Part shown: one piece after another, positions 670-15,783 of the stretch
How positions within the stretch are numbered: position 1 is the stretch's first letter
Layout: each line of letters begins with the position of its first letter
From: Aureimonas mangrovi
GTDB taxonomy: Bacteria; Pseudomonadota; Alphaproteobacteria; Rhizobiales; Rhizobiaceae
Length of the DNA: 64,000 bases
Direction of reading: 5' to 3'
NCBI RefSeq assembly: GCF_014058705.1
Contig: NZ_CP059692.1
Coordinates: 1,059,001 to 1,123,000, forward strand
Notes under the pieces: generated by a model
Databases searched by the model: none
What the model was told of the DNA's origin: nothing
Seen by the model: only the letters and a program-made list of their open reading frames with translations
Made by a program: the position numbers and the translations under genes

Positions 670-942
670 GTGGACCTGACCAAACTCGAACAGCGGCGCG
701 CTTCGCTGGAGGGGAAGCTCGCGAGCGCGAACGCGGCGCTCAAGCAGGCGCAACGGCGCGACGACACGCGGCGGAAAGTGGTCGTCGGTGCCGCGCTACT
801 CGCGGCCGTCCAGAGCGGCCGGTTGGACGCGAAGATTATCGCGTTCCTCGCCGCCCGGATGCCCGAGCGGGACCGGGCGCTCGTCGCCGATCTCCTGCCA
901 CCGGTCGCGGCCGGTGAGACCGACCGGGAGCCACGCGCATGA
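670..942 (+). CDS. MobC/TraD-like relaxosome accessory protein
   Basis: This gene encodes 90 residues from a GTG at 670, preceded by CGGAGGG at 654-660; an upstream ATG at 598 has no comparable site. The protein begins with a coiled-coil-like stretch (LEQRRASLEGKLASANAAL), followed by RRDDTRRKVVVGAALL, the pattern of small mobilisation proteins (MobC, or TraD of Ti-type plasmids) that load the relaxase at oriT. The gene is divergent from the relaxase and overlaps the dotA/traY start by four bases (ATGA at 939-942). Family assignment rests on pattern and context rather than on a defined catalytic motif. Confidence 0.65.
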   Translation: MDLTKLEQRRASLEGKLASANAALKQAQRRDDTRRKVVVGAALLAAVQSGRLDAKIIAFLAARMPERDRALVADLLPPVAAGETDREPRA

Positions 943-3047
943 GGCCCGCCGACCTTCTCGCTACGCCTCCCGATACGGACGTCGCGTGGCAACTTCTGAC
1001 GACGCTCCTGCCGACCGACGACGGCGCGACCCCTTTCGCATCGGTGATCGGCACCCTCTCGACGGCGCTGGTTTTCGCTGCCGCTGTATGGCTCGGATTC
1101 CAGATCGTCCAAGCATTGGTCACCGCCGCCCGGACGGGCGAGCCGCTGACGCGCGAGCAGGCCGGCGCGAGCGCGATCGTCCGCGTCGTCGTCGGGATCG
1201 GACTACTCGTACCGGTCACGTCGGCGGGGCTCTCGACGGCCCACTATCTGCTGCGCGACTGGGTAGCGCTGCCAGGCATCAACATCGCCAACCTCGCCGC
1301 CGAGGGCGCAGCGACACTGGTCGTTCGTGACGGCCAGCCGCTTGCACCGGTGTCCGCCGGCGGACGGGACGTCGCACTCGCTATCCTTGAGTCCGAGGTC
1401 TGCGTCCGGGCGCACGATGTCGCGCGCGCGTGGCGGCACGTCGCGGCGAGCAACGTAGCGGTGCTTCCTCCGGTCGCGGGAACGCCGGTCGTGAGCCCTG
1501 CGCGATCGTCGTGGCTTCCGTGGGGCGAGGACACCCCCGAGAGCGTGACCGGATTCGCGTGGTCATGGGGTCCCGCCTGCGGCTCACTGACGGTCTCGGC
1601 CGCGACCGATTTCGGCGGCGGCGCATTCGGTGAGGCTCGCCGCGGGGCGGTCGGAGCGATCGTCGCCGGGGTCCGGGAGGCCGAATGGCTGAATGCCTTG
1701 GCGGAGGAGTTGCGGTCGGTCTCGTTAGTGCGAGGGCACGGTCCCGAGTACGCGGAGGTGCTGCGGGAAGCGGGCGCGCTGCCGACCGATCTCGCCGCCG
1801 ATCTCCGTGCGGCAGGAGAGGCATACGACCGGGCGCTGTCGGCGGATGCGGTGCGGCTGACGGCGGCGGACGCTTCGACGGCGGACATGCGAGCCCTCGT
1901 CCTCGAGGACGTGCGGGAGCGCGGATGGTACGCCCTCGGTTCGTACTACCGCGTTATGGCGCACACCTCCCTCTCGGCAACGTCGGCGGTCGCCGAACGG
2001 GCGGAGCGCATGCGACCGAACCCGGATGCGTGGGAAACCCTGGCCGGGCCGGTCGGCTCGGCGCTCGCCGTGGTCGAGGCATACGGCGGCCGGTCGTCCG
2101 CTGCGGCGCGGCTCGCGCAGGGCGATGCCCTGACGGGACAGGCGGAGGCGGAGTCCGTGCTCGCGTCTGTAGTACAGACGGTCACGCTACCTGTCCTCGA
2201 CTGGCTCACCGCTCACGAGGCCCCGCGTGTCGATCCGGTCTCGGATCTGATGTCGCTTGGGGCGATCCTGCTCGTCGGCGCGCAAGCCGCGTGGGCGGTG
2301 GCGCTCGCGGCCTACGGCGGAAGCGCACTCTTCGCCGGCGTCGGTGGCGGGCTGATCGATTTCCTCATGGTCGCCGGCTGGCCCTTGATCGGGCTCGCGT
2401 GGTTGGGTGGGGCGGTCCTCGCGTACCTTCTCCCCCTGCTCCCCTTCCTGTTCGCAACCTTCGCCTTGGCGGCATGGGCGTGGGAAGTGATCAAGGCGGC
2501 GATCGCCGTGGTCGTGTGGGCCTTCCTGCACGTTCGGCTGAATGGAACCGACTTCGTGGGCAAGGAGCAACGTCAGGGCTATGTGTCGCTGGTCATCGGC
2601 ATTCTCCTGCGACCGGTCGTGACCGTTGCCGCTTTCGTCGCGATGAACGCCGTCAACGTCGCGGTCCTGAATGGCTTCCTCTTCGGCTACAACTCGGCGT
2701 TCAAGGCATCTCAGGTCGGCTACTCCATCGGGGTGACCGGCGTCGTGATCGCGGTCGCTGTCATGATCTACGTCCAATGGACTATCATCGTGTGGAGCTT
2801 CCGCATGGTCACCGAAATGCCGCAGAAGGTCGCCGAGTTCTTGGGCTACAGCGCGTCTGCATGGGGTGACGGGGACGCCGGCCGAGCCGTCGTCGGCGGG
2901 GTCGTGGGCGGTGGCAAAGGGACGCCGGTTCCCGGTGCCGGCCTCAAGAGCAAGGCGGAGACCGGTGGCGGAGGCGGCAGTGGCCTGCGAGCAACACCGG
3001 GCGCGGTCGCCGGGAAGCTCGTTGCGAAAGCTGGGAAGGGAGGTTGA
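939..3047 (+). CDS. traY: DotA/TraY-family type IVB secretion/conjugation membrane protein
   Basis: This gene encodes 702 residues. Hydrophobic segments occur near residues 32-52 and 78-95. A long soluble (probably periplasmic) stretch follows to about 420, then a cluster of membrane segments between about 430 and 530 and two more near 550-570 and 590-610. The C-terminus is Gly- and Ala-rich. The N-terminal pattern (FASVIGTLSTAL, GIGLLVPVTSAGLS) and the layout match DotA of Dot/Icm systems and TraY of IncI plasmids, inner-membrane channel components of type IVB systems. Translation is coupled to the upstream mobilisation gene (ATGA). The other type IVB genes are presumably left of the window. 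The last 60 bases or so recur in decayed form at 3310-3375. Confidence 0.8.
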   Translation: MRPADLLATPPDTDVAWQLLTTLLPTDDGATPFASVIGTLSTALVFAAAVWLGFQIVQALVTAARTGEPLTREQAGASAIVRVVVGIGLLVPVTSAGLSTAHYLLRDWVALPGINIANLAAEGAATLVVRDGQPLAPVSAGGRDVALAILESEVCVRAHDVARAWRHVAASNVAVLPPVAGTPVVSPARSSWLPWGEDTPESVTGFAWSWGPACGSLTVSAATDFGGGAFGEARRGAVGAIVAGVREAEWLNALAEELRSVSLVRGHGPEYAEVLREAGALPTDLAADLRAAGEAYDRALSADAVRLTAADASTADMRALVLEDVRERGWYALGSYYRVMAHTSLSATSAVAERAERMRPNPDAWETLAGPVGSALAVVEAYGGRSSAAARLAQGDALTGQAEAESVLASVVQTVTLPVLDWLTAHEAPRVDPVSDLMSLGAILLVGAQAAWAVALAAYGGSALFAGVGGGLIDFLMVAGWPLIGLAWLGGAVLAYLLPLLPFLFATFALAAWAWEVIKAAIAVVVWAFLHVRLNGTDFVGKEQRQGYVSLVIGILLRPVVTVAAFVAMNAVNVAVLNGFLFGYNSAFKASQVGYSIGVTGVVIAVAVMIYVQWTIIVWSFRMVTEMPQKVAEFLGYSASAWGDGDAGRAVVGGVVGGGKGTPVPGAGLKSKAETGGGGGSGLRATPGAVAGKLVAKAGKGG

Positions 3048-3089
3048 CGAGTCGGCGGCTCCGGGCGACCTTCTTCTCACGGCCTTCGG

Positions 3090-3303
3090 GTCGCATCCCT
3101 GAGGGATGTGGATTGAAGTACCGATACCGTCGAATAGATGGTGTTCACCGCCGAGCAGGCGGCTCTGAAGCATCGTGAGCGCGATCTTGTATCGCTCGCA
3201 CAGTCATTATCGTGAACGCGATCCGTCGCCGAGCGTATAGTCACCCGCCGAACAGGCGGTTCAGAGAACGGAAAGGGTGTCCTCTCGGGGGCACCCTTTT
3301 CCG
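3090..3303 (+). ncRNA. Candidate structured RNA with CRISPR-repeat-like hairpins (possible RNA anti-CRISPR)
   Basis: This stretch has no supported ORF and forms successive hairpins. At 3090-3119 GTCGC, a stem (ATCCC, TGA, GGGAT) and GTGGATTGAAG match the layout of type I-C CRISPR repeats. At 3143-3170, 21 of 28 bases match a typical type I-F repeat as I recall it; the stem change CTGCC/GGCAG to CCGCC/GGCGG is compensatory. A second, weaker I-F-like hairpin is at 3240-3267 (CCGCC, GAACA, GGCGG). Between them ATCGTGA(G/A)CGCGATC occurs twice, 37 bases apart. The region ends in a strong terminator at 3269-3303. The two I-F-like units are 97 bases apart, so this is not a normal array. Transcription is inferred; no clear promoter is visible. 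Confidence 0.45.
3269..3303 (+). terminator. Intrinsic terminator
   Basis: CGGAAAGGGTG and GCACCCTTTTCCG form a long stem that ends in a T-run. It closes the structured RNA region downstream of the dotA/traY-like gene. It is followed by CGTTTCCGGA at 3302-3311, the same ten bases that follow the terminator at 3886-3919. Confidence 0.75.
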
Positions 3304-3304
3304 T

Positions 3305-3480
3305 TTCCGGAGTGGCCTGCGGGCGACGCCGGGCGCGGTCGCTGGGGGCATCGCGAAAGCTGGGAAAGGCAGTTGACGGTAGGCCGGTTTCTGGCGACCT
3401 TCCCCTTCGTCGGCGGTAACGCTGGCATGGTCTAGTTCCCCTTGAGGGTGGGGATTGCCGCTAGCAGCCGCGGCAATCCC
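3305..3480 (+). repeat. Decayed duplicate of the dotA/traY 3' end and downstream DNA
   Basis: Bases 3311-3400 closely resemble 2990-3075: both contain AGTGGCCTGCG, CCGGGCGCGGTCGC, GCGAAAGCTGGGAA and GTTGACG in order. The copy has substitutions and small indels and carries no functional gene. Its continuation (3430-3458, CCCTTGAGGGTGGGGATTG) weakly echoes the I-C-like hairpin of the first copy (CCCTGAGGGATGTGGATTG). At 3451-3480 it contains a perfect 11-bp hairpin (GGGATTGCCGC, 8-base loop, GCGGCAATCCC) without a T-tract, in the leader of the next gene. Confidence 0.7.
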
Positions 3481-3531
3481 TCAGTTCCGGTTCCCCCGTG
3501 TGGATACCTCAACGAGCTTCAAGGACGCCTG

Positions 3532-3864
3532 ATGCGTATCATCAACACCCCCCACCCCCTCAATTCGTCGATGACGGTTAAGCGTGTTGAGGGCGCCCCC
3601 ATTCGGGGCCTGGCCCCTTCCGAGGATTTCGGGACGGACTGGTACTATCACCGCATTCGCGGCGTCACCTCGCTCAGCGAATACGCCTACGTTTGCCAGC
3701 CGGATCACCCGAACGCCGACCCCGTGCTGGGGCTTCGCGAAATCATCATCAACGAGTTGGACAGCCTCCCGGAAGATCATCCCGCTCTCGCGACTGAGGC
3801 GATGCGCGACGTGTGTCGGCGTATACGAGCCGACGTTGAGCGTCGCCTACCCGACGACTTCTGA
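3532..3864 (+). CDS. Hypothetical protein of the integrated element
   Basis: This gene encodes 110 residues. The start at ATG 3532 was chosen for AAGGA at 3521-3525; a reading from 3442 would begin inside the repeat and hairpin region. It is a soluble, mildly acidic protein with no recognised family and no signal peptide or membrane segment. A hydrophobic and charged helix near the C-terminus (AMRDVCRRIRADVERRL) suggests folding or dimerisation. It is a single-gene unit with its own terminator 21 bases after the stop. The 11-bp hairpin at 3451-3480 lies in its leader and may affect expression. Function unknown. Confidence 0.6.
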   Translation: MRIINTPHPLNSSMTVKRVEGAPIRGLAPSEDFGTDWYYHRIRGVTSLSEYAYVCQPDHPNADPVLGLREIIINELDSLPEDHPALATEAMRDVCRRIRADVERRLPDDF

Positions 3865-3885
3865 GCCGAGCATTCCTGGTCTAGA

Positions 3886-3923
3886 GAAGAAGGGGCATCC
3901 TCCGGGACGCCCCTTCTTCGTTT
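3886..3923 (+). terminator. Intrinsic terminator
   Basis: A perfect 11-bp stem (GAAGAAGGGGC at 3886-3896 with GCCCCTTCTTC at 3909-3919) and a 12-base loop are followed by GTTT. It ends the preceding 110-residue gene and faces the minus-strand small membrane protein gene. The trailing CGTTTCCGGA is shared with the terminator at 3269-3303. Confidence 0.8.
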
Positions 3924-3933
3924 CCGGACAGCC

Positions 3934-5253: not shown

Positions 5254-5706
5254 GTGTTCCTCGCCGACACCAACATCATCTCCGTCGCCTCGCCGTCCTC
5301 GAAGGCCGCGCCAGTGCATCTCGTCGCGTGGATGGATTCGGTGGGGCAAGCCGGGCGGCTCTACCTGTCGGCGGTCACCGCTGCCGAGGTCCGGGCCGGG
5401 GTTGCGAAGCTGCAACGGAAGGGCGCTACGCGGAAGGCTGCGGTCCTGCTCGACTGGTGGTCGGCGATCGAACACCTCTACGCCGACCGAATCCTCCCCT
5501 TCGATCTGAAGGCCGCTCATCATGCCGCCGTCATGGCCGACCGGGCGCTGGCGGCAGGCATCGAGCCCGGCTTCGCAGACGTCGCAATCGGATCGACGGC
5601 CGAGGCTCATGGTCTCGTCTGCCTGACGCGGAACGCGCGGCACTTCGCTCCGATGGGCGGTCGATGGCTGGACCCGTACACCGACCCTCTGCCTGAGGTT
5701 GTCTGA
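5254..5706 (+). CDS. vapC: PIN-domain ribonuclease toxin, VapC/FitB-like
   Basis: This gene encodes 150 residues from a GTG start three bases after the antitoxin gene. Acidic PIN-domain residues are visible: Asp5 in LADTN, Glu45 in TAAEVRAG, Asp84 in LPFDLKAA and Asp109 in GFADVAIGSTA, followed by LTRNARHF. The set is complete, so the nuclease is probably active. VapC toxins cleave specific RNAs (often tRNA) when the antitoxin is degraded. Pairing with a Phd/YefM antitoxin is common. Its role here is likely plasmid or ICE maintenance. The RNA target cannot be read from the sequence. Confidence 0.9.
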   Translation: MFLADTNIISVASPSSKAAPVHLVAWMDSVGQAGRLYLSAVTAAEVRAGVAKLQRKGATRKAAVLLDWWSAIEHLYADRILPFDLKAAHHAAVMADRALAAGIEPGFADVAIGSTAEAHGLVCLTRNARHFAPMGGRWLDPYTDPLPEVV

Positions 5707-5795
5707 GAGCATCGTCTGGGGAGGGAGCGGTCTGTGAGTTCGGGGTTGGCCGGGAAGCATTGCTGCTTTTTTACTATACACTGAATTCCCCACCC

Positions 5796-7199
5796 TCATC
5801 CGATCGGTTCGGCCTCCGGCCAGTTTGCCCGAACCGTCTTGCGGTCCTTGCCAACGCGGCGCGCGATGCCGGATACGGTGACGGCCTCTCCTGCTGCTCG
5901 TGCGGCCTCGATCGCTTCCCGGATCGCATCGGCGGACCGGGAGCGTCGAACGGCGGCAGCGTAGCGTGCACCGACCGCCTGACGGGCAGCGACACCCTGC
6001 ACGTCCTCGACGGCATCGGCGCAGGCCCCGCGATCGCGGGACCCGTCGCGGGAGGCGCGGGACGGGTCCCAGTGATCCGCAGCGTAGGAGGCCACTCGGT
6101 AGAGAATGGCCTGCGCCTGGCGCGGGTTGTCGGCAGCGGCGCTCAAGCGTCCGACCAGCGTCCCGAACAGCCGCTCCGCGAGCGCGTCACGATCTCGACG
6201 CAGGACCGCGCCCTTGTAGTCGGCGTCGTTCTCCCGGTGCCATTCCCCTAGCAACTGGAATGCCAGCGTCTGCGCTGCGGTGAACAAGGCGTTGGAGGCA
6301 GTGCGCTTCATACCGGACAAGGCGACGGCGGACTCCCGTATCATCCGATCGCGAGAGGTGGACGTATCCACCCAGCCGGCCCACTCCGATAGGGACGGGA
6401 ACAAGCTCTCGTTCCACACCCTGAACGACCAGAAAGGGCTCAAGGGGTTCTTGATCTTGTCGGGGTTCGAGAGCGCGCCGGGGTCCGCTCCGAGCGGCAT
6501 CAGGACGTTCGTCAGGCCGGCATGGACACCCCGCCAGAGGTTCATGATGTCTCGCCGGCAGCGCTGGTCCTTGTCCGAGAACCAGACGCCCTGATTGTAC
6601 GGGAGGAGCCAGAGGAGGTGCGGGCGTTCGACACGACCGGTCTCGTCCTCGTAGCCGACAGCGATCGACGGCAGGCACGGCAGGGCGAGCTCGGCGAGTT
6701 CCTGACGAAGCGCCCCCCAGGACGGGAAGCAATGATCGAGGTCGATCCGGAACACGGATCGCACGACGGGGTTCAGGTGCACGTAGGGCTCGTCCAGCCC
6801 GAGCGTTTTCGAGTCCACCCCATACACCACGCCCTTGTCGCGTCCGACGAGCATTCCTCGCGCCCGAGGAACGGCATGCACGATGCGTCTCAACATGTGG
6901 CTTCTCGTCGATCGGAAGCCCGACTCGGTGAACGGTGCATGGTGCCGCCCAGCAACTGTCCCCCCGAAATGCTCGAACCCCTTCCAGAACCGGCGGTGGA
7001 TGAGGTCGCGGCGGCTCGCCGCAGCGGCTACGAAAAGCTCCGATCCGGGCTTCATCGGCCGGCGCTTGGGCTGGGTCCCGTCGTTGAGGGCCGACCGCAG
7101 CCATGCCTCTTCCTTCCAGCGTGTCTCGAACTCGCGCACGGAGGCGGGGAGCGGCACGAGGGACGCGGACTCGTTGACATGATGGGGGCTGGCAGGCAC
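5796..7199 (-). CDS. rep: Plasmid replication initiator (replicase family, ColE2/RepA-like)
   Basis: This gene encodes 467 residues from a GTG at 7199-7197, with GAGGT about 8 bases upstream. Residues about 140-210 (VHLNPVVRSVFRIDLDH, then PHLLWLLPYNQGVWF) match the replicase family of plasmid initiators, where an Asp-x-Asp core and the N/H...L..LPV-like segment belong to a primase/polymerase-like fold. The C-terminal EAVTVSGIARRVGKDRKT is a helix-turn-helix. The family starts replication at an origin near its own gene; four iterons lie 270-350 bases upstream. The gene shows that the integrated element has, or had, autonomous replication ability. Confidence 0.75.
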   Translation of the reverse strand: MPASPHHVNESASLVPLPASVREFETRWKEEAWLRSALNDGTQPKRRPMKPGSELFVAAAASRRDLIHRRFWKGFEHFGGTVAGRHHAPFTESGFRSTRSHMLRRIVHAVPRARGMLVGRDKGVVYGVDSKTLGLDEPYVHLNPVVRSVFRIDLDHCFPSWGALRQELAELALPCLPSIAVGYEDETGRVERPHLLWLLPYNQGVWFSDKDQRCRRDIMNLWRGVHAGLTNVLMPLGADPGALSNPDKIKNPLSPFWSFRVWNESLFPSLSEWAGWVDTSTSRDRMIRESAVALSGMKRTASNALFTAAQTLAFQLLGEWHRENDADYKGAVLRRDRDALAERLFGTLVGRLSAAADNPRQAQAILYRVASYAADHWDPSRASRDGSRDRGACADAVEDVQGVAARQAVGARYAAAVRRSRSADAIREAIEAARAAGEAVTVSGIARRVGKDRKTVRANWPEAEPIG

Positions 7200-7219
7200 G
7201 CTGGACCTCGTTCACACAG

Positions 7220-7265
7220 AGACCCCCGGGAGCGCCTGGCAGCGCGAAGATCGGGGGTCTTTCTG
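7220..7265 (+). ncRNA. Hairpin in the rep leader, possibly the end of an antisense RNA
   Basis: AGACCCCCG at 7220-7228 pairs perfectly with CGGGGGTCT at 7252-7260, followed on the plus strand by TTCTGCGTTT. It lies 21-61 bases upstream of the rep start, opposite in direction to rep. In the ColE2 group, rep expression is limited by a small antisense RNA to the leader, and this hairpin would suit its terminator. It could equally be an attenuator in the rep mRNA. Neither transcript is proven. Confidence 0.4.
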
Positions 7266-7661
7266 CGTTTAGGGTCCGGCGGATATCCGCGGGCGGCAAT
7301 CGCAACAGGATGTGAACAAGGGTGACCGTTGCACCTCAGGATCATGTCTCCCGGGTGATCTGGCCGGCTCCGCCCCCCAGGGGGATCACGCCGCCTCGCG
7401 GGGCGACGGCGTTTCGTCTGGATCGCCGCACCTGCGGCGCACCGATCCGTTCGCGGGACGGAAGTTGGGCCCGAGAGGGACGTCGATCGAAGTGAGAGAG
7501 GGACGTCAGGTCCGAGCCGAGAGGGACGTCAACCTCGATTCGGAGGGACGTGCGGCACCTGGGGTAGGTACAGAGTAGGTACGAAAGCTGAAAACGGGCA
7601 AAACACCACTCGGCGCCATATCGGCACCGGACGAAAAGCCTATCCATTTCAGTGATTTAGT
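7262..7661. other. Non-coding replication-origin region of the integrated element
   Basis: About 400 bases lack a supported gene. The stretch contains a GC-rich hairpin at 7420-7448 (GGATCG..CCGC, ACCT, GCGG..CGATCC), an inverted GTGATC/GATCAC pair near 7355-7388, the iterons at 7473-7552, and a short direct repeat GTAGGTAC at 7564-7571 and 7575-7582. Bases from about 7590 to the tRNA are less GC-rich. Together with the adjacent rep gene this looks like an origin. The exact element/chromosome border near the tRNA cannot be set without the other end. Confidence 0.55.
7473..7552 (+). repeat. Four iterons upstream of rep
   Basis: GAGAGGGACGTC occurs exactly at 7473-7484, 7496-7507 and 7519-7530. 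A fourth, diverged copy (CGGAGGGACGTG) is at 7541-7552. Spacings are 23, 23 and 22 bases, about two helical turns, so all copies face the same side of the helix. Such arrays are binding sites for a replication initiator; the rep gene lies about 270 bases away. Binding by this Rep is inferred. Confidence 0.8.
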
Positions 7662-7738
7662 TGGCGCGCCCGAAAGGATTCGAACCTCTGACCCCCAGAT
7701 TCGTAGTCTGGTGCTCTATCCAGCTGAGCTACGGGCGC
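7662..7738 (-). tRNA. tRNA-Arg (anticodon ACG)
   Basis: This is a complete cloverleaf on the minus strand. Acceptor arms GCGCCCG and CGGGCGC, anticodon stem CCAGA/TCTGG with loop CTACGAA (anticodon ACG, read as ICG), T arm with GGTTCGAATCC, and an encoded CCA at 7662-7664. Its 3' end faces the plasmid-like region, the arrangement expected when an element has integrated into a tRNA 3' end. Confidence 0.97.
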
Positions 7739-7853
7739 CACCGGCGAGAACGGCTCGTCGGCGTCTCGCGAGGGGGTTCCTAGCCGCTCGCCTTCGTGAT
7801 TGCAAGCGGCGTTCACGCACAATGTGCTCCTTCTCCCGGACCGCTCGAGCGGC

Positions 7854-9503
7854 TCAGGCGTCGCGAGCGGCGGAGTAGGGAATCTCGATCTCGAAGCGGG
7901 CGCCGGGGAAGATGTCGTCGCGGTAGCGGATACGCCCGCCGTGCGCCTCGACGATCTCGGCCGCGATCGCGAGACCGAGGCCCGTACCGCCAGCGCGCGT
8001 CGATCCGCGAAAAGCCTGGAAGAGGGTCGCGCGCGCCTGTTCGCTCAGGCCGGGCCCCGTGTCCTCGACGCCGATCGTCACGAAGCTCGACGCAAGGGTC
8101 GCCGAGATTTCCACCCGTCGCACCAACGCATCGCTGTCGTTCGATTCGACGGCCTCCATCGCATTTCGCACGAGGTTGGAGAGGGCGCGGTGGAATTGAT
8201 CGGGATCGACATCGACTTCGAGAGTATCAGGCACCGCGTTGACGAGTTCGATTCGCGAATCGCCGCGCGTGGCCGCGGTGTCGAAAATCTCCTCGACGAG
8301 TAAGAACAGTCGCAGGCGTCGCTTCACCGGCGTCTCCTCCACCGCCCGTCCGTAGTTGAGGACCGAGCGGGTGTAGAAGAGCGCGCGGTCGAGCGAACGA
8401 ATCAATGTCGGCGCGAAGCGCTGGACCTGCGGGTCCGGAATGTCGGACATGCGATCGGAAACGAGCTGTGCGGACGCCAGCGTGTTGCGAAGGTCGTGGT
8501 TGATCTTGGAGACCGCGAGGCCGAGATCGGCGAGATGTCGGCGCTCACGAAGGGTGCGTGCAAGGATCGCCTGCATGCGTGCAAGTTCCGCTTCCGCGAT
8601 CCCGATCTCGTCGTCTCGCCCGCTCGTGGGGACGATGCGCGTCGGGTCTTCGGGCTGTTCAGCGAAGCGGATCATGGCCTGCGTCAGCCCGCGGATGGGC
8701 CGTAGCAGGAAGTGGTTGATCGCGATGTTCATCAACAGTCCGACGAAGCCGGCGATCAGCAGCGAGATGACGAGGAGCTCACGCGCATAGGCCAACATGT
8801 CCCGGCGCAGCGGGCGCTCCGAGATCACGGCCTCGGCACGCATCGAACCGTCGCCGATATCGCCGAGCACGCGCAGTGCCCGTCTCTCGCCGAAGGCCAG
8901 CGTGTCGAAGGCCTGCGCGATCGAGCCGAGAACGCTCTCGCGCTCGAGATCGACTTCGCGGTCGACCGTGCTGACCTCTGGCGAGCGCGCGAGAAGGCGC
9001 GAGGTGCCGCCCGCGTCCACCGCGATCAGTTCCGCATCGAGCGCACGCAGGAGTTGGGCTTCGCCTTCGGGCGTCAGCATGACGCCGTCTTCGTCGCCCT
9101 GGCCGGCCGCGAAGCTAGCGACCGCGACGGTCTCGATCTTGGAATGCAGCCATTCTTTGCGGAAATTCGCCAGAGAGGGAACGAAGATAAGGACCTCCGC
9201 GATCATGACGGAGATCATCGTGGCCCAGACGAGACGGGTCGACAGCCGCCGGGGCAGCTTCGGGCGCGTCTTCGCGGCCGCTTTGGCGGGCAGGCCACCA
9301 GCGTTCGAACCAGTTCTGTCTGCGTGCTGCGCCAATGCCCCGATCCGGCCTCTCGCCCTTCCGTCCAGAGCGCGCCATGCGTCCGTCCAAACGGCCCACA
9401 TGGAGCATCCGGCCCATCGTTCCACGGATCGCAGCCATCGAAAGGTCGGATCCGCGCGCTGGTGCGATCTACGAGAACGCACGATCACACCTTTGCGATG
9501 CAC
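7854..9503 (-). CDS. Membrane sensor histidine kinase
   Basis: This gene encodes 549 residues from the furthest GTG (9503); an ATG at 9401 (515 residues) is an equally plausible start, since neither has a strong ribosome site. A membrane segment near 90-110, a variable extracytoplasmic sensor region and a second segment near 250-265 are followed by HAMP, H-box (KINHDLRNTLASAQLV), N-box (NLVRNAMEAVES), G1 (VEDTGPGLS) and G2 (GGTGLGLAIA). It autophosphorylates on the H-box His and passes phosphate to a response regulator. No regulator gene is adjacent, so the partner is elsewhere (orphan kinase). Signal unknown. Confidence 0.9.
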   Translation of the reverse strand: MHRKGVIVRSRRSHQRADPTFRWLRSVERWAGCSMWAVWTDAWRALDGRARGRIGALAQHADRTGSNAGGLPAKAAAKTRPKLPRRLSTRLVWATMISVMIAEVLIFVPSLANFRKEWLHSKIETVAVASFAAGQGDEDGVMLTPEGEAQLLRALDAELIAVDAGGTSRLLARSPEVSTVDREVDLERESVLGSIAQAFDTLAFGERRALRVLGDIGDGSMRAEAVISERPLRRDMLAYARELLVISLLIAGFVGLLMNIAINHFLLRPIRGLTQAMIRFAEQPEDPTRIVPTSGRDDEIGIAEAELARMQAILARTLRERRHLADLGLAVSKINHDLRNTLASAQLVSDRMSDIPDPQVQRFAPTLIRSLDRALFYTRSVLNYGRAVEETPVKRRLRLFLLVEEIFDTAATRGDSRIELVNAVPDTLEVDVDPDQFHRALSNLVRNAMEAVESNDSDALVRRVEISATLASSFVTIGVEDTGPGLSEQARATLFQAFRGSTRAGGTGLGLAIAAEIVEAHGGRIRYRDDIFPGARFEIEIPYSAARDA

Positions 9504-9547
9504 GCGCGCGATGAAAAGCCTCGCGGCGGCGCGAACGCTCCTGCGGA

Positions 9548-9577
9548 TTGACTTTTCGCAGTTTCCTTTCCTATAAG
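9548..9577 (+). promoter_or_regulatory. Sigma-70-like promoter for rpmH-rnpA
   Basis: TTGACT at 9548-9553 and TATAAG at 9572-9577, spaced 18 bases, precede rpmH by about 120 bases. This is the clearest housekeeping promoter in the window and fits the strong expression of rpmH. The leader is about 115 bases long. Confidence 0.65.
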
Positions 9578-9698
9578 CGCGCGATCAGAGCGGAAGCACC
9601 CGCCCGGTACCGATGGTCCGTGGCCGGGTTTCGCCCGCTCTTCGTTCTTATCGTCACCCGATCCGAGGGATCCGTGGCCGGTCCGCGGAAGAGGCATC

Positions 9699-9833
9699 AT
9701 GAAGCGCACTTATCAGCCGTCCAAGCTCGTCCGCAAACGCCGCCATGGCTTCCGCGCGCGCATGGAAACCACCGGTGGCCGCCGCGTGCTCGCCGCACGT
9801 CGCGCCAAGGGCCGCAAGCGCCTCTCCGCCTAG
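9699..9833 (+). CDS. rpmH: 50S ribosomal protein L34
   Basis: This gene encodes 44 residues beginning [18 protein letters not shown], the near-invariant L34 sequence, very basic, ending RKRLSA. It sits on the large ribosomal subunit surface. The start is ATG 9699 with GGAAGAGG upstream. It heads the conserved rpmH-rnpA-yidC string, and rnpA begins five bases after its stop. Confidence 0.98.
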
Positions 9834-9837
9834 GGGC

Positions 9838-10212
9838 TTGAAGCCGGCCACGGGGGTCGGGCGGCTCACGGAGCGCGCTCAGTTCCTCGCCGCCCGGCGA
9901 GGCCGGCGCCTCAACGGGCCGCTCTTCTTCGTCGAGGCCCTGGACCGGGGTGATGACGGGATGCCGCGCATCGGCTTCACCATCACGCGCAAGGTCGGCA
10001 ACGCGGTGGAACGCAACCGTATCCGCCGCCGTCTCCGCGAGGCTGTCCGACTGAACGCCGGGGCGGACATGACACGCGGCTTCGATTATGTCGTCGTGGC
10101 GCGGCGCGAGCTCCTCGAGGCGCCGTTCGAGACGATCGGCAAGGAACTTTCCCGGCGGTTCCGAAAGACCGCCGCTTCGAACGAAGGGCGAGGGGCGATC
10201 CCCCCGCGCTGA
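9838..10212 (+). CDS. rnpA: Ribonuclease P protein component
   Basis: This gene encodes 124 residues. The signature RNRIRRRLREAVR and the preceding IGFTITRKVGNAVE identify the RNase P protein, which helps the RNA subunit bind pre-tRNA 5' leaders. The best start is TTG at 9838, with AGGGG immediately after the rpmH stop; no ATG or GTG lies near the expected N-terminus (LTERAQFLAARRG). A longer reading would overlap rpmH. Expression is probably coupled to rpmH. Confidence 0.95.
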   Translation: MKPATGVGRLTERAQFLAARRGRRLNGPLFFVEALDRGDDGMPRIGFTITRKVGNAVERNRIRRRLREAVRLNAGADMTRGFDYVVVARRELLEAPFETIGKELSRRFRKTAASNEGRGAIPPR

Positions 10213-10228
10213 GGGCAAGCGAGACGTC

Positions 10229-12025
10229 ATGGAAAACAACCGCAACTTCCTCCTCGCGATGGCCCTGTCGATCGCCGTGCTGGTCGGCTGGCAGTTCTTC
10301 GTCGTCAATCCGCGCGTGGACGCGCAGAACGGGGCGACGGTCGCCGAGCCCGGTTCGCTGCAGACGCCGACCGTACCGGCCGGCGAGCCGCAGGAGGAGG
10401 CGTTCGTGCCCTCGGGCACCGAGAGCGTCCCTCTGGCGGGAGAGACACCGCAAGACACTGCGCAACAGGAGGAGACCCCGGAGGCGGGCCGCCTGACGAT
10501 CGAAACGCCGGAGCTTTCCGGCTCGATCAACCTTCAGGGCGCGCGGCTCGACGACCTTCACCTCAAGGGCTACCACGAGACGGTAGACGACAGTTCGCCA
10601 ACGATCGTCCTTCTTTCACCCGAGGCGAACGCCAACGGCTATTTCGCCGAGTTCGGCTATTCGGGCCAGAACGTCGGCACGTTGCCGGGGCCCGCGACTG
10701 TCTGGGAAGCCGCCGAAGGGCAGACGCTGACGCCCGAGACGCCGGTCGAGCTGACCTACACCAACGAGCAGGGCATCACCTTCGCGCGCGAGATCTCGGT
10801 CGACGCGAACTATATGTTCCAAGTGCGCGACAGCGTCACCAACACGGGCGCCGCGCCGGTCTCGATCACGCCCTACGGCCGCGTCACGCGCTTCTCCAAG
10901 CCCGAAGTCGCCGCCGCCTTCGTGGTTTTCGAGGGGCTCATCGGCGTTCTGGGTGAAGACGGGCTGAACGAGATCAGCTACTCCTCGATCGAGGATGACG
11001 GCAGGGTCGCGCCGCCGGCATCGCAGTCCGGCTGGCTCGGTATCACGGACAAGTACTGGGCGACGGCGCTTATCCCGGGCGAGGGCAACGGCACCTTCCA
11101 GCCGAACTTCCGCTACGCCTCACAAGGCCGCGCCTTCTACCAGTCGGACTATCTCAGCCAGGCGGTCACGCTGGAGCCGGGCGCGACGAGCGAGGTGACG
11201 AGCCGTCTCTTCGCCGGCGCCAAGGTCGTCAGCCTCGTGCGCGGCTACGAGGAGGCCGGCATCGACCGGTTCACCCAGCTCATCGACTGGGGCTGGTTCT
11301 TCTTCATCACCCGGCCGATGTTCACGGTGATCGACTGGCTCTACGTCCTCACCGGCAATTTCGGCGTGGCGATCCTGCTCGTCACGGTCCTCGTGAAGCT
11401 CATCTTCTTCCCGCTCGCCAACAAGTCGTACAAATCGATGGCGAACATGAAGCGCGTGCAACCGCGCCTCATGGAGCTGCGCGAGAAGTATGCCGACGAC
11501 CGGATGAAGCAGCAGCAGGAAATGATGCGCATCTACAAGGAGGAAAAGATCAACCCCGCCGCCGGCTGCTGGCCGGTACTGGTGCAGATCCCCGTCTTCT
11601 TCGCGCTCTACAAGGTGCTCTACGTCACGATCGAGATGCGGCACGCGCCGTTCTTCGGCTGGATCCAAGATCTCGCCGCGCCCGATCCGACCTCGATCTT
11701 CAATCTCTTCGGCCTCATCCCGATCGATCTCCCGATGTTCCTGATGATCGGTGTGTGGCCGATCCTGATGGGCATCTCGATGTTCATTCAGATGAAGCTG
11801 AATCCGCTGCCGCCGGACCCGACGCAGCAGATGATCTTCACCTGGATGCCGGTGATCTTCACGTTCATGCTGGCGACGTTCCCGGCTGGTCTCGTCATCT
11901 ACTGGACCTGGAACAACACGCTTTCAATCATCCAGCAGAGCGTTATCATGAAGCGCCACGGCGCCAAGATCGAGCTGTTCGACAACATCCGAGCGATGTT
12001 CAAGCGAAAGAAAAAGGAGGCCTGA
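10229..12025 (+). CDS. yidC: Membrane protein insertase YidC
   Basis: This gene encodes 598 residues. An N-terminal membrane anchor (FLLAMALSIAVLVGWQFF) leads into a large periplasmic domain (about 30-350), then the conserved insertase core with five membrane segments (FGVAILLVTVLVKLIFFPL and following). The C-terminus ends in a basic KRKKKE tail. YidC inserts proteins with or without SecYEG. The start ATG 10229 was chosen by homology of the anchor. It is 16 bases after rnpA and followed by a terminator at 12056. Confidence 0.98.
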   Translation: MENNRNFLLAMALSIAVLVGWQFFVVNPRVDAQNGATVAEPGSLQTPTVPAGEPQEEAFVPSGTESVPLAGETPQDTAQQEETPEAGRLTIETPELSGSINLQGARLDDLHLKGYHETVDDSSPTIVLLSPEANANGYFAEFGYSGQNVGTLPGPATVWEAAEGQTLTPETPVELTYTNEQGITFAREISVDANYMFQVRDSVTNTGAAPVSITPYGRVTRFSKPEVAAAFVVFEGLIGVLGEDGLNEISYSSIEDDGRVAPPASQSGWLGITDKYWATALIPGEGNGTFQPNFRYASQGRAFYQSDYLSQAVTLEPGATSEVTSRLFAGAKVVSLVRGYEEAGIDRFTQLIDWGWFFFITRPMFTVIDWLYVLTGNFGVAILLVTVLVKLIFFPLANKSYKSMANMKRVQPRLMELREKYADDRMKQQQEMMRIYKEEKINPAAGCWPVLVQIPVFFALYKVLYVTIEMRHAPFFGWIQDLAAPDPTSIFNLFGLIPIDLPMFLMIGVWPILMGISMFIQMKLNPLPPDPTQQMIFTWMPVIFTFMLATFPAGLVIYWTWNNTLSIIQQSVIMKRHGAKIELFDNIRAMFKRKKKEA

Positions 12026-12055
12026 GCCTCCTCCGCCCTCGGGCGATTGGATAGA

Positions 12056-12085
12056 GGGCGAGCCGTCGGCTCGCCCTTTCTCGTT
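12056..12085 (+). terminator. Intrinsic terminator after yidC
   Basis: GGGCGAGCC (12056-12064), loop GTC, GGCTCGCCC (12068-12076), then TTTCTCGTT: a perfect 9-bp stem. It separates rpmH-rnpA-yidC from the acetyltransferase-engB pair. Confidence 0.85.
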
Positions 12086-12111
12086 CGGGCTCACGCAAGA
12101 AGGACACCGCC

Positions 12112-12750
12112 ATGCTCGGACCGGACCCCAAGGCCATTCATCCGTTGCCGCATCTCCCGCGCCTCGTCTTCCTCAAGCCGCTGGTCACGCGGCCGAACAT
12201 CGAGGTGGGCGAGTACACCTATTACGACGATCCGGCAGACGCGCTCGCTTTCGAGAATCGCAACGTCACCCATCACTATGAGTTTCTCGGCGACCGGCTG
12301 GTGATCGGACGCTTCTGTGCCATCGCGGCCGGTGCGACCTTCGTGATGAACGGAGCGAACCACGTCATGGGCGGGCTCTCGACCTTCCCGTTCAATATCT
12401 TCGGCAATGGCTGGGAGGAGGGGTTCGACGTCGACAGTGTGCTCGGGCAGACGCGCGGCGACACGGTGATCGGCAGCGACGTCTGGATCGGCGAAGGCGC
12501 GACGATCCTGCCGGGCGTCACGATCGGGTCAGGTGCGGTGATTGGAGCGCGCGCGGTCGTCGCGCGCGACGTGCCGCCCTACGCGATCGTCGCGGGCAAT
12601 CCCGCTCGCCTGAAGCGCTCCCGTTTCGAGGCGCAGCAAGTCGAGCGTCTCCTCGCCCTTGCGTGGTGGGACTGGAGCGCCGAAAAGATCGGCCGGAACA
12701 TCGCCGCCATTCGCGGCGCGGACGTCGAGACACTGGAGCAGGCGGCATGA
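12112..12750 (+). CDS. CatB/Vat-type xenobiotic acetyltransferase (hexapeptide repeat)
   Basis: This gene encodes 212 residues with the left-handed beta-helix pattern ([20 protein letters not shown], then [25 protein letters not shown]). The N-terminal [16 protein letters not shown] and the segment [12 protein letters not shown] carry the catalytic His region of the Vat/CatB family. These enzymes transfer acetyl groups to streptogramins, chloramphenicol or unknown hydroxyl acceptors; chromosomal homologues often have no known drug substrate. The start is ATG 12112 with AAGGA upstream. The stop overlaps the engB start (ATGA), so the two are coupled. Confidence 0.9.
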
Positions 12751-13409
12751 GCGGAGCGATCGATCCCATCGCAGGCGAGGAGACGCGGCTTTTCTTCGCG
12801 CGGCCCTGGGTCTTCATCCGCGGTGTGCCGGCGATGAAGTTCCTGCCGCCCGAAGGTCCGCCGGAGATCGCCTTCGCGGGGCGCTCGAATGTCGGCAAGT
12901 CCTCGCTGATCAACGCGGTGGTCTCGCAGAAGGGTCTCGCACGCACCTCGAATACGCCGGGCCGCACGCAGGAGCTGAATTACTTCGTGCCGGACGGATT
13001 CTCGGGCGAGGGCGGCGATCTGCCGCCGATCGCGGTGGTGGACATGCCTGGCTACGGTTACGCGAAGGCTCCGAAGGAACAGGTGGACGCGTGGACGAAG
13101 CTCGTCTTCGACTATCTGCGCGGCCGCTCGACGCTGAAGCGCGTCTTCGTCCTGATCGATGCCCGCCACGGCATCAAGAAGAACGACGCCGACGTCCTGT
13201 CGTTGCTGGACAAGGCGGCGGTCTCCTACCAGATCGTTCTGACCAAGGCCGACAAGATTTCCGAGCTGGCTCTGCCCAAGCTCGAGGCCGCGACGCTGGA
13301 GGCGATCCGCAAGCGCCCGGCCGCCTATCCGCAGATCATCTCGACGTCGTCGGAGAAGGGCAGGGGGGTGGACGATCTGAGAACCGCCATCGCCACGCTG
13401 TCGGACTGA
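12747..13409 (+). CDS. engB: Ribosome biogenesis GTPase EngB/YihA
   Basis: This gene encodes 220 residues. GTPase motifs: G1 GRSNVGKS, G2 Thr near TSNTPGRT, G3 DMPGYGYA, G4 TKAD, G5 STSS. EngB is an essential GTPase that acts late in 50S assembly. The start ATG 12747 overlaps the upstream acetyltransferase stop by four bases. The location after yidC is conserved in many Hyphomicrobiales, although an intervening acetyltransferase gene is less usual. Confidence 0.96.
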
Positions 13410-13477
13410 GGGATCGGCCCCAATCCAGAATCGGTTTCGGAAAAGTTTCGGGCGAGGATTGAACGGCCGCTCTGCCT

Positions 13478-13936
13478 TTAGCGCGCCTTCAGTTCCTCGA
13501 TCTTCTCCTCGATGCGACGATAGACGTCGCGATAGGCGTCGAGGATCTGTCCTCGCGAACCGGCGACGACGGACGGGTCGGGCATCGGCCAGAACTCCAC
13601 CGCTACCGAATCGGTGCCGGTGCGGTCGAGCGCCACGTGATGCGCCTCCGGTGACATGGTCACGATGAGGTCGAAATAGCCGTCGGCAAGCTCTTCCAGC
13701 GCGCGGGGCCGGAAGTCGCCGAGCGACAGGCCGTTCTCGGCGAGGATCACGTCCACGAACGGATCGCGCTCGCCGCATTTCACGCCGGCGGAGGCGACGT
13801 AGACGGACGGCGGCAGGATGGAGTGGGCGATGGCCTCGGCCATCGGCGAGCGGATGGCGTTCATGCCGCAGACGAAGAGGACGGAGCCCGGCCGCGCGCC
13901 GTTCTGGCCGACCACCGCTTCGCCCGCGCCGCTCAA
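13478..13936 (-). CDS. Low-molecular-weight protein-tyrosine-phosphatase-family protein (ArsC-like)
   Basis: This gene encodes 152 residues. The P-loop CGMNAIRS (Cys23 to Arg29, C-x5-R-S) and the general-acid Asp120 in PMPDPS are intact. The family hydrolyses phosphotyrosine or related phosphates. It lies downstream of hisD and UPF0262, an arrangement conserved in Hyphomicrobiales, but the true substrate is not known. The start at 13936 is TTG without a clear ribosome site; GTG at 13915 is an alternative. Confidence 0.85.
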   Translation of the reverse strand: MSGAGEAVVGQNGARPGSVLFVCGMNAIRSPMAEAIAHSILPPSVYVASAGVKCGERDPFVDVILAENGLSLGDFRPRALEELADGYFDLIVTMSPEAHHVALDRTGTDSVAVEFWPMPDPSVVAGSRGQILDAYRDVYRRIEEKIEELKAR

Positions 13937-14005
13937 GGGCGCACCGTGGACGGCCGGGCGGCGGCGGTGGCAGGCTTGAGCGGCTTTGCGAAGCGCGTCA
14001 TCGTC

Positions 14006-14476
14006 TCAGTTCCGCCAGTGGAGGGCGCAGATGAGGGTAAACAGCCGGCGCGCGGTGTCCTGGTCGATGCTGATCTTGCCGGCCAGACGCTCGCGCAGGA
14101 GCTGCGAGCCGTCGTTGTGGACGCCGCGCCGTCCCATGTCGATCGCCTCGATCTGCGAGGGCGTCGCCGAGCGGATGGCGGCATAGTAGCTGTCGCAGAT
14201 GAGGAAATAGTCTCGGATGATCCGCCGGAAGGGCGTCAGCGACAGGATGTGCGTCGCCACGGCGCCGCCGGCCTCGTCGGTGATCTCGAAGACGAGCCGC
14301 TTGTCCGCGAGCAGAAGGCGCAGCTTGAAGCGTCCCCCTTCGGCCCCGACCGGGTCGAAGGAGTTCTCCTCGATCAGATCGAAGATCGCGACGGCGCGCT
14401 CATGCTCGATGTCGCTCGTCGCGCGCCCGATCGTCTCGTCGAGATCGATGGCGACGAGGCGCCCGTGCTCGCTCAT
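14006..14476 (-). CDS. UPF0262 family protein
   Basis: This gene encodes 156 residues. The sequence ([18 protein letters not shown], then [20 protein letters not shown]) matches the uncharacterised UPF0262 family, which is confined largely to alphaproteobacteria and almost always sits next to hisD. The start ATG 14476 overlaps the hisD stop by four bases. No catalytic motif is known. The tight coupling with hisD suggests shared regulation rather than a proven histidine role. Confidence 0.9.
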
Positions 14477-15783
14477 GCCGCCTCGCTGCGACGGTCGAGC
14501 CGCACCCCGACCGAGCGGGCGTGGGCGCCAAGGCCCTCGGCCTCAGCGATCGTGATCGCGGCCGGGCCGAGCGCGGCCAGGCCCTCCGGCGTCAGCTTCA
14601 GGACCGAGGTGCGCTTGACGAAATCCAGCACCGAAAGCCCGGACGAGAAGCGCGCCGAGCGTGCGGTCGGCAGGACGTGGTTCGAGCCGCCGACATAGTC
14701 ACCGATCACCTCCGGCGTGTGGCGGCCGAGGAAGGCCGCGCCCGCGTCGCGAATGCGTGAAAAGAGCACCTCGGGCTCGTCCGTGGCGATCTCCAGATGT
14801 TCGGCCGCGATGCGGTCGGCGAGCGGCGGCGCCTGCTCTAGAAGGTTCTCGACAAGGACGATCGCGCCGAAGTCGCTCCAGCTCGCGCGGGCAGTCTCTT
14901 CGCGCGGCAGCGTACGAAGCTGGCGTTCGACGGCCTCCTCCACCGCATCCGCGAAGCCCGCATCGTCTGTGATGAGGATCGACTGCGCCGCCGCGTCGTG
15001 TTCGGCCTGGGCAAGGAGATCGGCTGCGATCCAGTCCGGGTCGTTGGCGCCGTCCGCGATGACCAGAACCTCGGACGGGCCTGCGATCATGTCGATGCCG
15101 ACCGTACCGAACACCTGGCGCTTGGCCGCCGCGACATAGGCGTTGCCGGGGCCGACGATTTTGGCGACGGGCGCGATGGTCTGTGTGCCGAAGGCGAGGG
15201 CGGCCACGGCCTGCGCCCCGCCGATACGCCAGATCTCATCGACGCCGGCGATCCGGGCCGCCGCCAGGACTAGCGGATTGAGCTTGCCCGCGCGGGCGGG
15301 TACGGCCATGGCGATGCGCGGCACGCCCGCGACCTTGGCCGGCACCGCGTTCATCAGGACGGAAGAGGGATAGCTCGCCGCGCCGCCGGGCACGTAGAGA
15401 CCGACCGCGCCGATCGCCGTCCAGCGGTGGCCGAGCTCGGCGCCGGCGCCGTCGTCGTAGCGCTCGTCCATCGGGCGCTGGCGCTCGTGGTGGCGCAGAA
15501 TGCGGTCGTGCGCGAACTGCAGGGCATCGCGGATTTCGGCGGGCGCTCCCTCGTAGGCGGCCTCGATAGCATCCTGCGGAACGCGCAGCGTCTCGGGCGT
15601 CAACTCCAGCGCGTCGAAGCGCGCGGTCAGCTCGACGAGCGCCGTGTCGCCTTCGGCTCGCACCTTCGCGACGATCGCACGCACGGCGTCGTCGACGTCT
15701 TGGGAGACTTCACGTTTGGCGGCGAGGAGGTCGCGAAAGCCGGCCTCGAAGCCTTCGTCCCTGATGTCGAGCCTGACGGGCAA
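14473..15783 (-). CDS. hisD: Histidinol dehydrogenase
   Basis: This gene encodes 436 residues. It oxidises L-histidinol to L-histidine with NAD and zinc, the last two steps of the pathway. Visible motifs are [17 protein letters not shown], the signature segment [18 protein letters not shown], and the C-terminal [18 protein letters not shown]. The start is TTG at 15783, preceded by AGAGGA; no ATG lies nearby. It is followed without a gap by UPF0262. Length is normal for the family. Confidence 0.97.

Follow-up and report, generated by a model that had tools for sequence, protein, structure and literature searches.

A type I-F CRISPR-repeat look-alike behind traY in an integrated element of Aureimonas mangrovi, with a possible role as a Racr-like RNA decoy

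Positions 3143-3170 of the window, as we call the whole 64,000-nucleotide stretch of the Aureimonas mangrovi genome analysed here (contig NZ_CP059692.1), hold what is, judged by sequence, a genuine look-alike of the type I-F CRISPR repeat, located between the traY gene of an integrated element and a terminator-like hairpin. The best explanation that we can offer, with a probability of roughly 0.55, is that the 3' end of the traY transcript serves as an RNA decoy against CRISPR-Cas systems, working in the manner of Racrs (RNA anti-CRISPRs). We favour this idea because the resemblance to I-F repeats lies far above background, and because clusters of several hairpins are present in related elements (L007 and L018/L019), one of them with a convincing type I-C unit beside I-F-like units. 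The features discussed are collected in Table 1.

Table 1. Coordinates of the features in the window and in the compared loci.
Feature	Sequence	Position	Strand	Basis or remark
traY/dotA-family gene, 702 aa	window	939..3047	+	NCBIfam TIGR04346 DotA_TraY, 185.7 bits (cut-off 100)
Structured insert with repeat look-alikes	window	3048..3303	+	between traY stop and terminator-like hairpin
I-C-repeat-like hairpin with TGGATTGAA tail, weak	window	3090..3117	+	hairpin-plus-tail layout
Type I-F-repeat look-alike	window	3143..3170	+	Cas6f-type stem CCGCC/GGCGG, pentaloop GAGCA, predicted Cas6f cut after 3162
Stretch between the I-F-like units	window	3171..3239	+	69 nt; over-long pseudo-spacer if both units are cut
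Second, weaker I-F-like unit	window	3240..3267	+	DR4 21.9 bits, E 0.031; R1 21.8 bits
Strong terminal hairpin	window	3270..3303	+	predicted fold; similar hairpins after traY in L017 and L018
Diverged duplicate of traY 3' end, SGLRATPGAVAGGIAKAGKGS*	window	3311..3402	+	repeat search D1/D2, alignment, translation; 3' of the RNA unit
att copy	window	7662..7712	.	51-bp exact repeat at tRNA end
tRNA	window	7665-7738	minus	gathering-level Rfam scan
Second att copy	L005	12268-12318		51-bp exact repeat, 14.4 kb to the left, beside the integrase
Hairpin cluster, ~750 nt	L018/L019	12260-13005	minus	3.2-3.9 kb downstream of traY, opposite strand
Single I-C repeat look-alike, native tail GTGGATCGAAAC	L021/L022	15026-15072	+	26.4 bits
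Two weak I-F-like hairpins 10 nt apart	L024	13265-13322	minus	R1 18.9 and 14.2 bits
Native type I-F locus	L161 (G181, Hyphomicrobiales)	5675-15603		array repeat GCTCCCTGCCGGATAGGCAGCTGAGAGA
Two I-F repeats, 19-nt middle	L163 (G187)	3770-3844		between cas3f and cas8f of native I-F operon

The type I-F look-alike and the structured insert

The Rfam CRISPR-DR4 model matched 3143-3170 over all 28 positions with 32.4 bits (E 1.9e-5; 511 nt searched with 4227 families), a score below the curated cut-off of 35, and the gathering-level scan of the window lists two tRNAs only. Natural I-F repeats were gathered by a pattern search of 299 Pseudomonadota genomes, of which 17, the present one included, gave a match. 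The initial annotation had counted 21 of 28 matching bases, and this number was confirmed at exactly this place against the commonest natural I-F repeat; identity rises to 23/28 with the best repeat from a bacterial array and to 24/28 (86%) with a viral mini-array repeat, the best of the 13 repeats gathered. In 13 sources searched on both strands, ungapped identity of at least 21/28 to these 13 repeats was reached by the two window units and the L007 unit only (24, 21 and 23, respectively). The likeness of 3143-3170 to natural I-F repeats thus stands far above background. The stem change from CTGCC/GGCAG to CCGCC/GGCGG, described earlier as compensatory, is real and keeps the Cas6f-type stem, but it is found in natural arrays too.

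Using a model (R1) of 12 natural I-F repeats, nine distinct ones from bacterial arrays and three from viral contigs, we determined how the unit ranks among whole genomes. R1 is somewhat biased to the window unit, since some of its repeats were fetched by patterns shaped on that unit, whereas the Rfam DR4 model is independent of it. In 15 whole genomes (~72 Mb by listed sizes; best 150 candidates per genome) 3143-3170 was the top match at 34.2 bits, and the runners-up among the matches listed were the second window unit (21.8), a background match in the same genome (20.9) and the L007 unit (20.1). When 229 genomes of the order were searched (best 32 candidates per genome), the unit shared the top place with a pair of repeats in genome G187 (34.2 and 33.2 bits); the scores that follow among the matches listed are 28.1, 26.1 and 24.0 bits, and the window unit stands 6 bits above the best listed background match outside cas loci. 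Weak background may be undercounted in all genome-wide searches, which kept 150 and 32 candidates per genome for R1 (15 and 229 genomes) and 44 for the I-C model R2 described below. Coding sequence contributes to this background: a frame reading DTAEQAAQK, clpB-like by eye, scores 22.2 bits with R1 in the 229-genome search, and 3143-3170 itself overlaps a 25-codon open frame (MVFTAEQAALKH..., 3138-3215) encoding F-T-A-E-Q-A-A-L-K.

The region had also been described as structured and terminated. The predicted fold of 3044-3310 has a z of -3.43, with none of 200 shuffles as stable, and bears out the former description; a 34-nt piece with the I-F unit alone folds no better than its shuffles (z -0.58; 57 of 200 as stable). 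As for termination, the strong hairpin at 3270-3303, which resembles hairpins behind traY in relatives, is by its modelled fold a probable intrinsic terminator, but a simple scan finds neither a terminator nor a sigma-70 promoter at the insert.

Further units in the insert

The third, weaker unit proposed at 3240-3267 was recognised locally by both models, but several background matches in the 229 genomes score above it with R1, so it is notable in its place and not genome-wide. It lies 97 nt downstream of the first unit in a different reading frame and, being identical to it at 20 of 28 positions (71%), may be a diverged copy (repeat family D4). A phage search with 3163-3245 returned partial matches only (E 3-9). 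The middles between paired I-F-like units measure 69 nt in the window, 21 in L018 and 10 in L024, compared with the 32 nt of a natural I-F array that is implied by the 60-nt periods of the gathered arrays.

When seven units were aligned with three natural repeats, all 50 stem cells were found to pair, and two of the five stem pairs show changes on both sides, including a C-G to U-A replacement in an L018 unit. The units compared had been picked by a stem-requiring pattern or model, so the pairing is partly by construction and the weight rests on the compensatory changes alone. All units and repeats of this set share C6, G20, G11 and A15; G11 and A15 have a role in the loop. Three units have CTCTGAAG, CTCTGAAA and CTCTGGAA as their tails, as against CTTAGAAA. 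This variant tail is absent from all natural I-F repeats gathered, and the pattern CCGCCGNNYAGGCGGCTCTGAA with the variant tail has no match in IMG/VR.

A type I-C unit had been annotated at 3090-3119. Its layout of GTCGC, hairpin and TGGATTGAA is present, but a model (R2) of 11 of the 18 distinct Hyphomicrobiales I-C repeats (five of 31 nt and two of 32 nt dropped) gives 3090-3117 6.2 bits (E 0.25 in 601 nt), which is not above background for natural I-C repeats, the Rfam list holds no I-C match at this place, and the TGGATTGAA tail pairs with upstream CTTCGG in the predicted fold. A search of the same genome with R2 gave no match at E <=0.5 among the best 44 candidates. A hairpin followed by the tail TGGATYGAA arose in two of 30,000 shuffles and, on both strands of 584 kb of comparison sequence, was found in the unit itself only; this test was written after the unit had been seen and is strict enough to miss the I-C unit of L018. 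The R2 score, the lack of matches in the same genome and the paired tail led us to reject 3090-3117 as a firm I-C member, and its I-C likeness is suggestive only.

The element, its relatives and native CRISPR systems

The genome that carries the window is a single contig of 3.49 Mb, and the first 7.7 kb of the window form the right end of an integrated element. The att repeats bound this element, of 14.4 kb, at a tRNA gene (genome 1052268-1066712), and it encodes a tyrosine-type integrase, a MobA/MobL relaxase and a Phd/YefM-PIN toxin-antitoxin pair. A complete transfer system is not seen in the list of larger open frames inside the att repeats, from which we infer that the element is mobilizable rather than conjugative. 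traY, whose closest named relatives come from Aureimonas and Aurantimonas (52-58%), is presumably cotranscribed with the RNA unit downstream.

The 3' end of traY is duplicated on either side of the RNA unit (window 2979-3073 and 3311-3402), and another closing hairpin of this type is seen at ~3885-3926; two cargo slots may derive from a tandem duplication. Directly 3' of the RNA unit, a 110-aa open frame (3532-3864) is a candidate cargo gene, with no match in Pfam, NCBIfam or PHROGs.

TraY relatives occur in 8 of 397 genomes of the order (the present one included) and at nine loci of the genome collection, while IMG/VR has none. The sequence directly 3' of traY was inspected at 13 loci (L007-L010, L014, L015 and L017-L023); L011, L012 and L013, viewed only upstream of traY, are not counted. 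These relatives are not all independent: the traY regions of L018-L022 are near-identical, L009 and L014 belong to one genome, and a single contig seems to underlie both L008 and L025. The initial annotation proposed to judge its claim by conservation of the hairpins in related elements: 12 of the 13 relatives have no such hairpin cluster directly after traY, but comparable clusters exist in L007 and L018/L019. Several relatives pass straight from traY to a hairpin like the one that closes the window insert, and the 12 relatives without a cluster there led us to reject it as the ancestral 3' end of traY. L014 has a weak place just after traY (20/28) that R1 does not find.

In L007 (genome G271; TraY 49% identical) a string of hairpins follows traY on its own strand, ~0.4-0.8 kb downstream. 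It comprises an I-F-like unit (DR4 22.0 bits, E 0.028; R1 20.1 bits, within the R1 background of the 229 genomes) and two weak I-C-like units (R2 11.5 and 10.4 bits; E 0.005 and 0.012 in 601 nt). The clusters of L018 and L019, from Aureimonas flava and A. psammosilenae, are identical, and the fold of the L018 cluster has a z of -5.8 (20 shuffles). Two I-F-like units score 24.5 and 15.3 bits with R1 and 21.1 and 20.6 bits with DR4 (E 0.083 and 0.12), the 24.5-bit unit without the last six repeat positions, and an I-C unit with the native tail GTGGATCGAAAC scores 26.1 bits with R2. L018/L019 is the best mixed-subtype case, and a mixed string is better supported there than in the window. Several CCCTGCGNNAGCAGGG hairpins are also seen in this cluster.

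The I-C look-alike of L021/L022 is identical in A. endophytica and A. ureilytica. The two L024 hairpins, in a Hyphomicrobiales MAG, are placed between two small genes with similar ribosome-site cassettes, and this locus is a possible anti-defence island. The theme so recurs at differing places of related elements, as accessory cargo would. Hairpins of L018 (CCCTGCGCGAGCAGGG) and L007 (CCCCGCGGAAGCGGGG) were considered as type I-E mimics and rejected, as a model (R3) of 7 of the 8 natural I-E repeats gathered found nothing better than E 1.6 in 18 sources; on 851 nt of L018 an unfiltered run of R3 scored 10.7 bits (E 0.022) on the strand opposite to the cluster and, over the hairpin core only, 8.5 bits (E 0.084) on the cluster strand. 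Plasmid searches with the window region and with the L018 and L007 clusters returned short matches at weak E or none (window region E 0.3-3), as did the phage search with the L018 cluster. A search of IMG/VR for an I-C tail followed within 5-35 nt by TTCACYGCCG gave 45 stretches, none of them with a complete I-F hairpin.

The annotation had seen neither cas genes nor an array, and both statements hold over a wider range: csy4 and cas1 were not found in the genome, and 2800-3800 of the window contains no regular CRISPR array. One Cas5 match below the cut-off is probably spurious, because it runs antisense to a long frame that looks by eye like an acyl-CoA dehydrogenase. csy4 was detected in 1 of 337 genomes of the class. 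Among the matches listed for the 229 genomes of the order there are one I-F array (G181) and one pair of repeats inside an I-F operon (G187). In G181, cas8f, cas5f, cas7f, cas1f and cas3f were recognised, while neither Pfam nor PADLOC recognises the 217-aa Cas6f candidate, so the csy4 counts are lower bounds. The G187 contig also has a partial Csy4. The G187 pair was rejected as a second solitary case by its position between cas3f and cas8f and by this partial Csy4, and may be a native array of minimal length or have a regulatory role; with its 19-nt middle, it implies that odd spacing alone is no mark of a decoy.

I-C cas1 lies above the cut-off in 23 of 297 genomes of the order, and each of nine listed genomes of the same family has at least seven R2 matches (matches, and not array-spaced repeats as such). 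Set against csy4 in 1 of 337 genomes, this makes type I-C a common and type I-F a rare threat. The strong I-C units of L018 and L021 are in keeping with this; that the window has a strong I-F unit becomes harder to account for.

A decoy model, rival explanations and known systems

In the decoy model, an element entering a cell with a type I-F system would produce the traY-linked transcript, which Cas6f would bind and cut at 3162/3163 and possibly at 3259/3260. Cas6f would stay on the upstream product, that is, the end of the traY mRNA with hairpin 3148-3162, and Cas7f would be drawn onto an RNA that is not a guide. This would parallel the published decoy, which Cas6f binds and cuts and on whose upstream product Cas7f assembles without Cas5f and Cas8f (PMC10651486, here and below the article without its supplements). 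Cutting at both sites would release a 97-nt molecule that starts with the 8 nt CTCTGAAG at its 5' end and finishes in a repeat hairpin. A natural crRNA has 60 nt, with an 8-nt 5' handle and a 20-nt 3' handle, according to the part of PMC5965380 used here; the 97-nt product would be crRNA-shaped, but with a middle of 69 nt instead of 32. Middles of 69, 21 and 10 nt, as in the window, L018 and L024, would make poor guides and plausible decoys.

Because the L018 string also holds a strong I-C unit, we infer that the decoys are polyvalent, directed at more than one subtype. The wider proposal is a tentative one, drawn from sequence comparison: polyvalent RNA anti-CRISPR cassettes might be a cargo of alphaproteobacterial integrative elements, with I-F and I-C decoys, and perhaps decoys of other subtypes represented by some of the unexplained L018 and L007 hairpins, joined in single transcripts at distances unlike those of spacers, which would yield over-long or over-short pseudo-crRNAs; in the window the cassette would sit behind a transfer gene, and its decoys would be made during transfer. 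The suggestion of the initial annotation that one transcript acts as a Racr with mimics of two subtypes gains from the I-F resemblance and from the related clusters, but its I-C half is weak in the window. If the proposal is true, integrative elements use broad-range RNA decoys made of strings with several units and subtypes, which would explain why a finder of solitary units misses them and would provide natural tandem inhibitors for CRISPR control.

Several observations argue against the decoy reading. The host has no detected csy4 or cas1 and type I-F is rare in the class; 12 of the 13 inspected relatives have no cluster directly after traY; the I-C unit of the window lacks support from the I-C model; coding sequence can mimic the motif, as in the 22.2-bit clpB-like frame and the 25-codon frame at the unit; the second unit and the L007 unit lie within the 229-genome background; and the simple scan found no promoter.

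Among the rivals, the one that survives best, unlikely as we judge it, holds that these are 3' hairpins that stabilise the tra mRNA or regulate the operon and resemble CRISPR repeats incidentally. Strong structure directly behind a tra gene and ahead of a hairpin resembling a terminator, in a host without detected csy4 or cas1, is in agreement with it. On the other hand, stabilising would not need the I-F flanks GTTCAC and GAA, an identity of 24/28 and a joint top score in 229 genomes would be unexpected, and the similar units of L007 and L018 sit elsewhere, in L018 on the opposite strand and more than 3 kb off.

A rather improbable alternative takes the two I-F-like units of one transcript as a mini-array, relic or functional, that guides the host system against competitors. 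Mini-arrays are known on mobile elements (in the part of PMC11656645 used here), and the native I-F operon of G187 contains a two-repeat unit with a 19-nt middle; yet the middle in the window has 69 nt instead of 32, its units are merely 20/28 identical, its phage matches are partial (E 3-9) and the plasmid matches of the region are short (E 0.3-3). Least probable of the three is a likeness due to chance or to coding, with F-T-A-E-Q-A-A-L-K in a small frame and GC-rich coding DNA often making such hairpins. The 25-codon frame and the clpB-like and other background of up to 28.1 bits would suit it; against it, 34.2 bits lies 6 above the best listed background outside cas loci, the small frame has no visible ribosome site, its frame is not that of the second unit, the L007 and L018 clusters repeat the theme and the L018 stem carries a compensatory change.

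The preferred decoy reading can be placed beside several known systems. The 28 positions of the window unit agree with CRISPR-DR4 (Rfam RF01317) in sequence and fold, but its score is under the curated 35 bits and it does not belong to a regular array. Like viral CRISPR mini-arrays, the window has few repeats on a mobile element; in contrast to them, its middle is not spacer-sized, its repeats are not identical and no target was found, so that near-identical repeats around a spacer of ~32 nt are replaced here by a 69-nt middle and 20/28 identity. Racrs of types I-F and I-C are known, one I-C Racr sharing its transcript with a protein gene that ends 11 nt before it, and the survey of solitary Racrs counted 2,103 on viral sequences and 90 on plasmids (PMC10651486). 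The finder used there compares a library of 17,823 repeats, accepts units from 90% identity to a known repeat upwards and drops loci with partial repeats (>70%) within 100 bp (PMC10651486). The second window unit starts 69 nt after the first one ends and is 20/28 (71%) identical to it, so the locus falls outside the filter for solitary units; going by the article without its supplements, the finder would discard it and would miss clustered strings of this kind. Multi-subtype repeat strings or Racrs on alphaproteobacterial integrative elements are not described in PMC10651486 without its supplements, in the part of PMC11656645 used here or in reviews at abstract level (open-licence sources, preprints aside).

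RacrIF1 and the other Racrs (Camara-Wilpert et al., 2023, PMC10651486, main article) are the closest comparison. As in those, an I-F hairpin away from arrays and cas genes is carried by a mobile element with C6-G20 kept, two positions whose mutation abolishes Cas6f binding and inhibition (PMC10651486). The window I-F unit displays the Racr features of an intact C6-G20 pair, a 5-bp stem and a pentaloop. In contrast to the Racrs described in that article, the window strings two I-F-like units and other hairpins behind a tra gene of an integrative mobilizable element.
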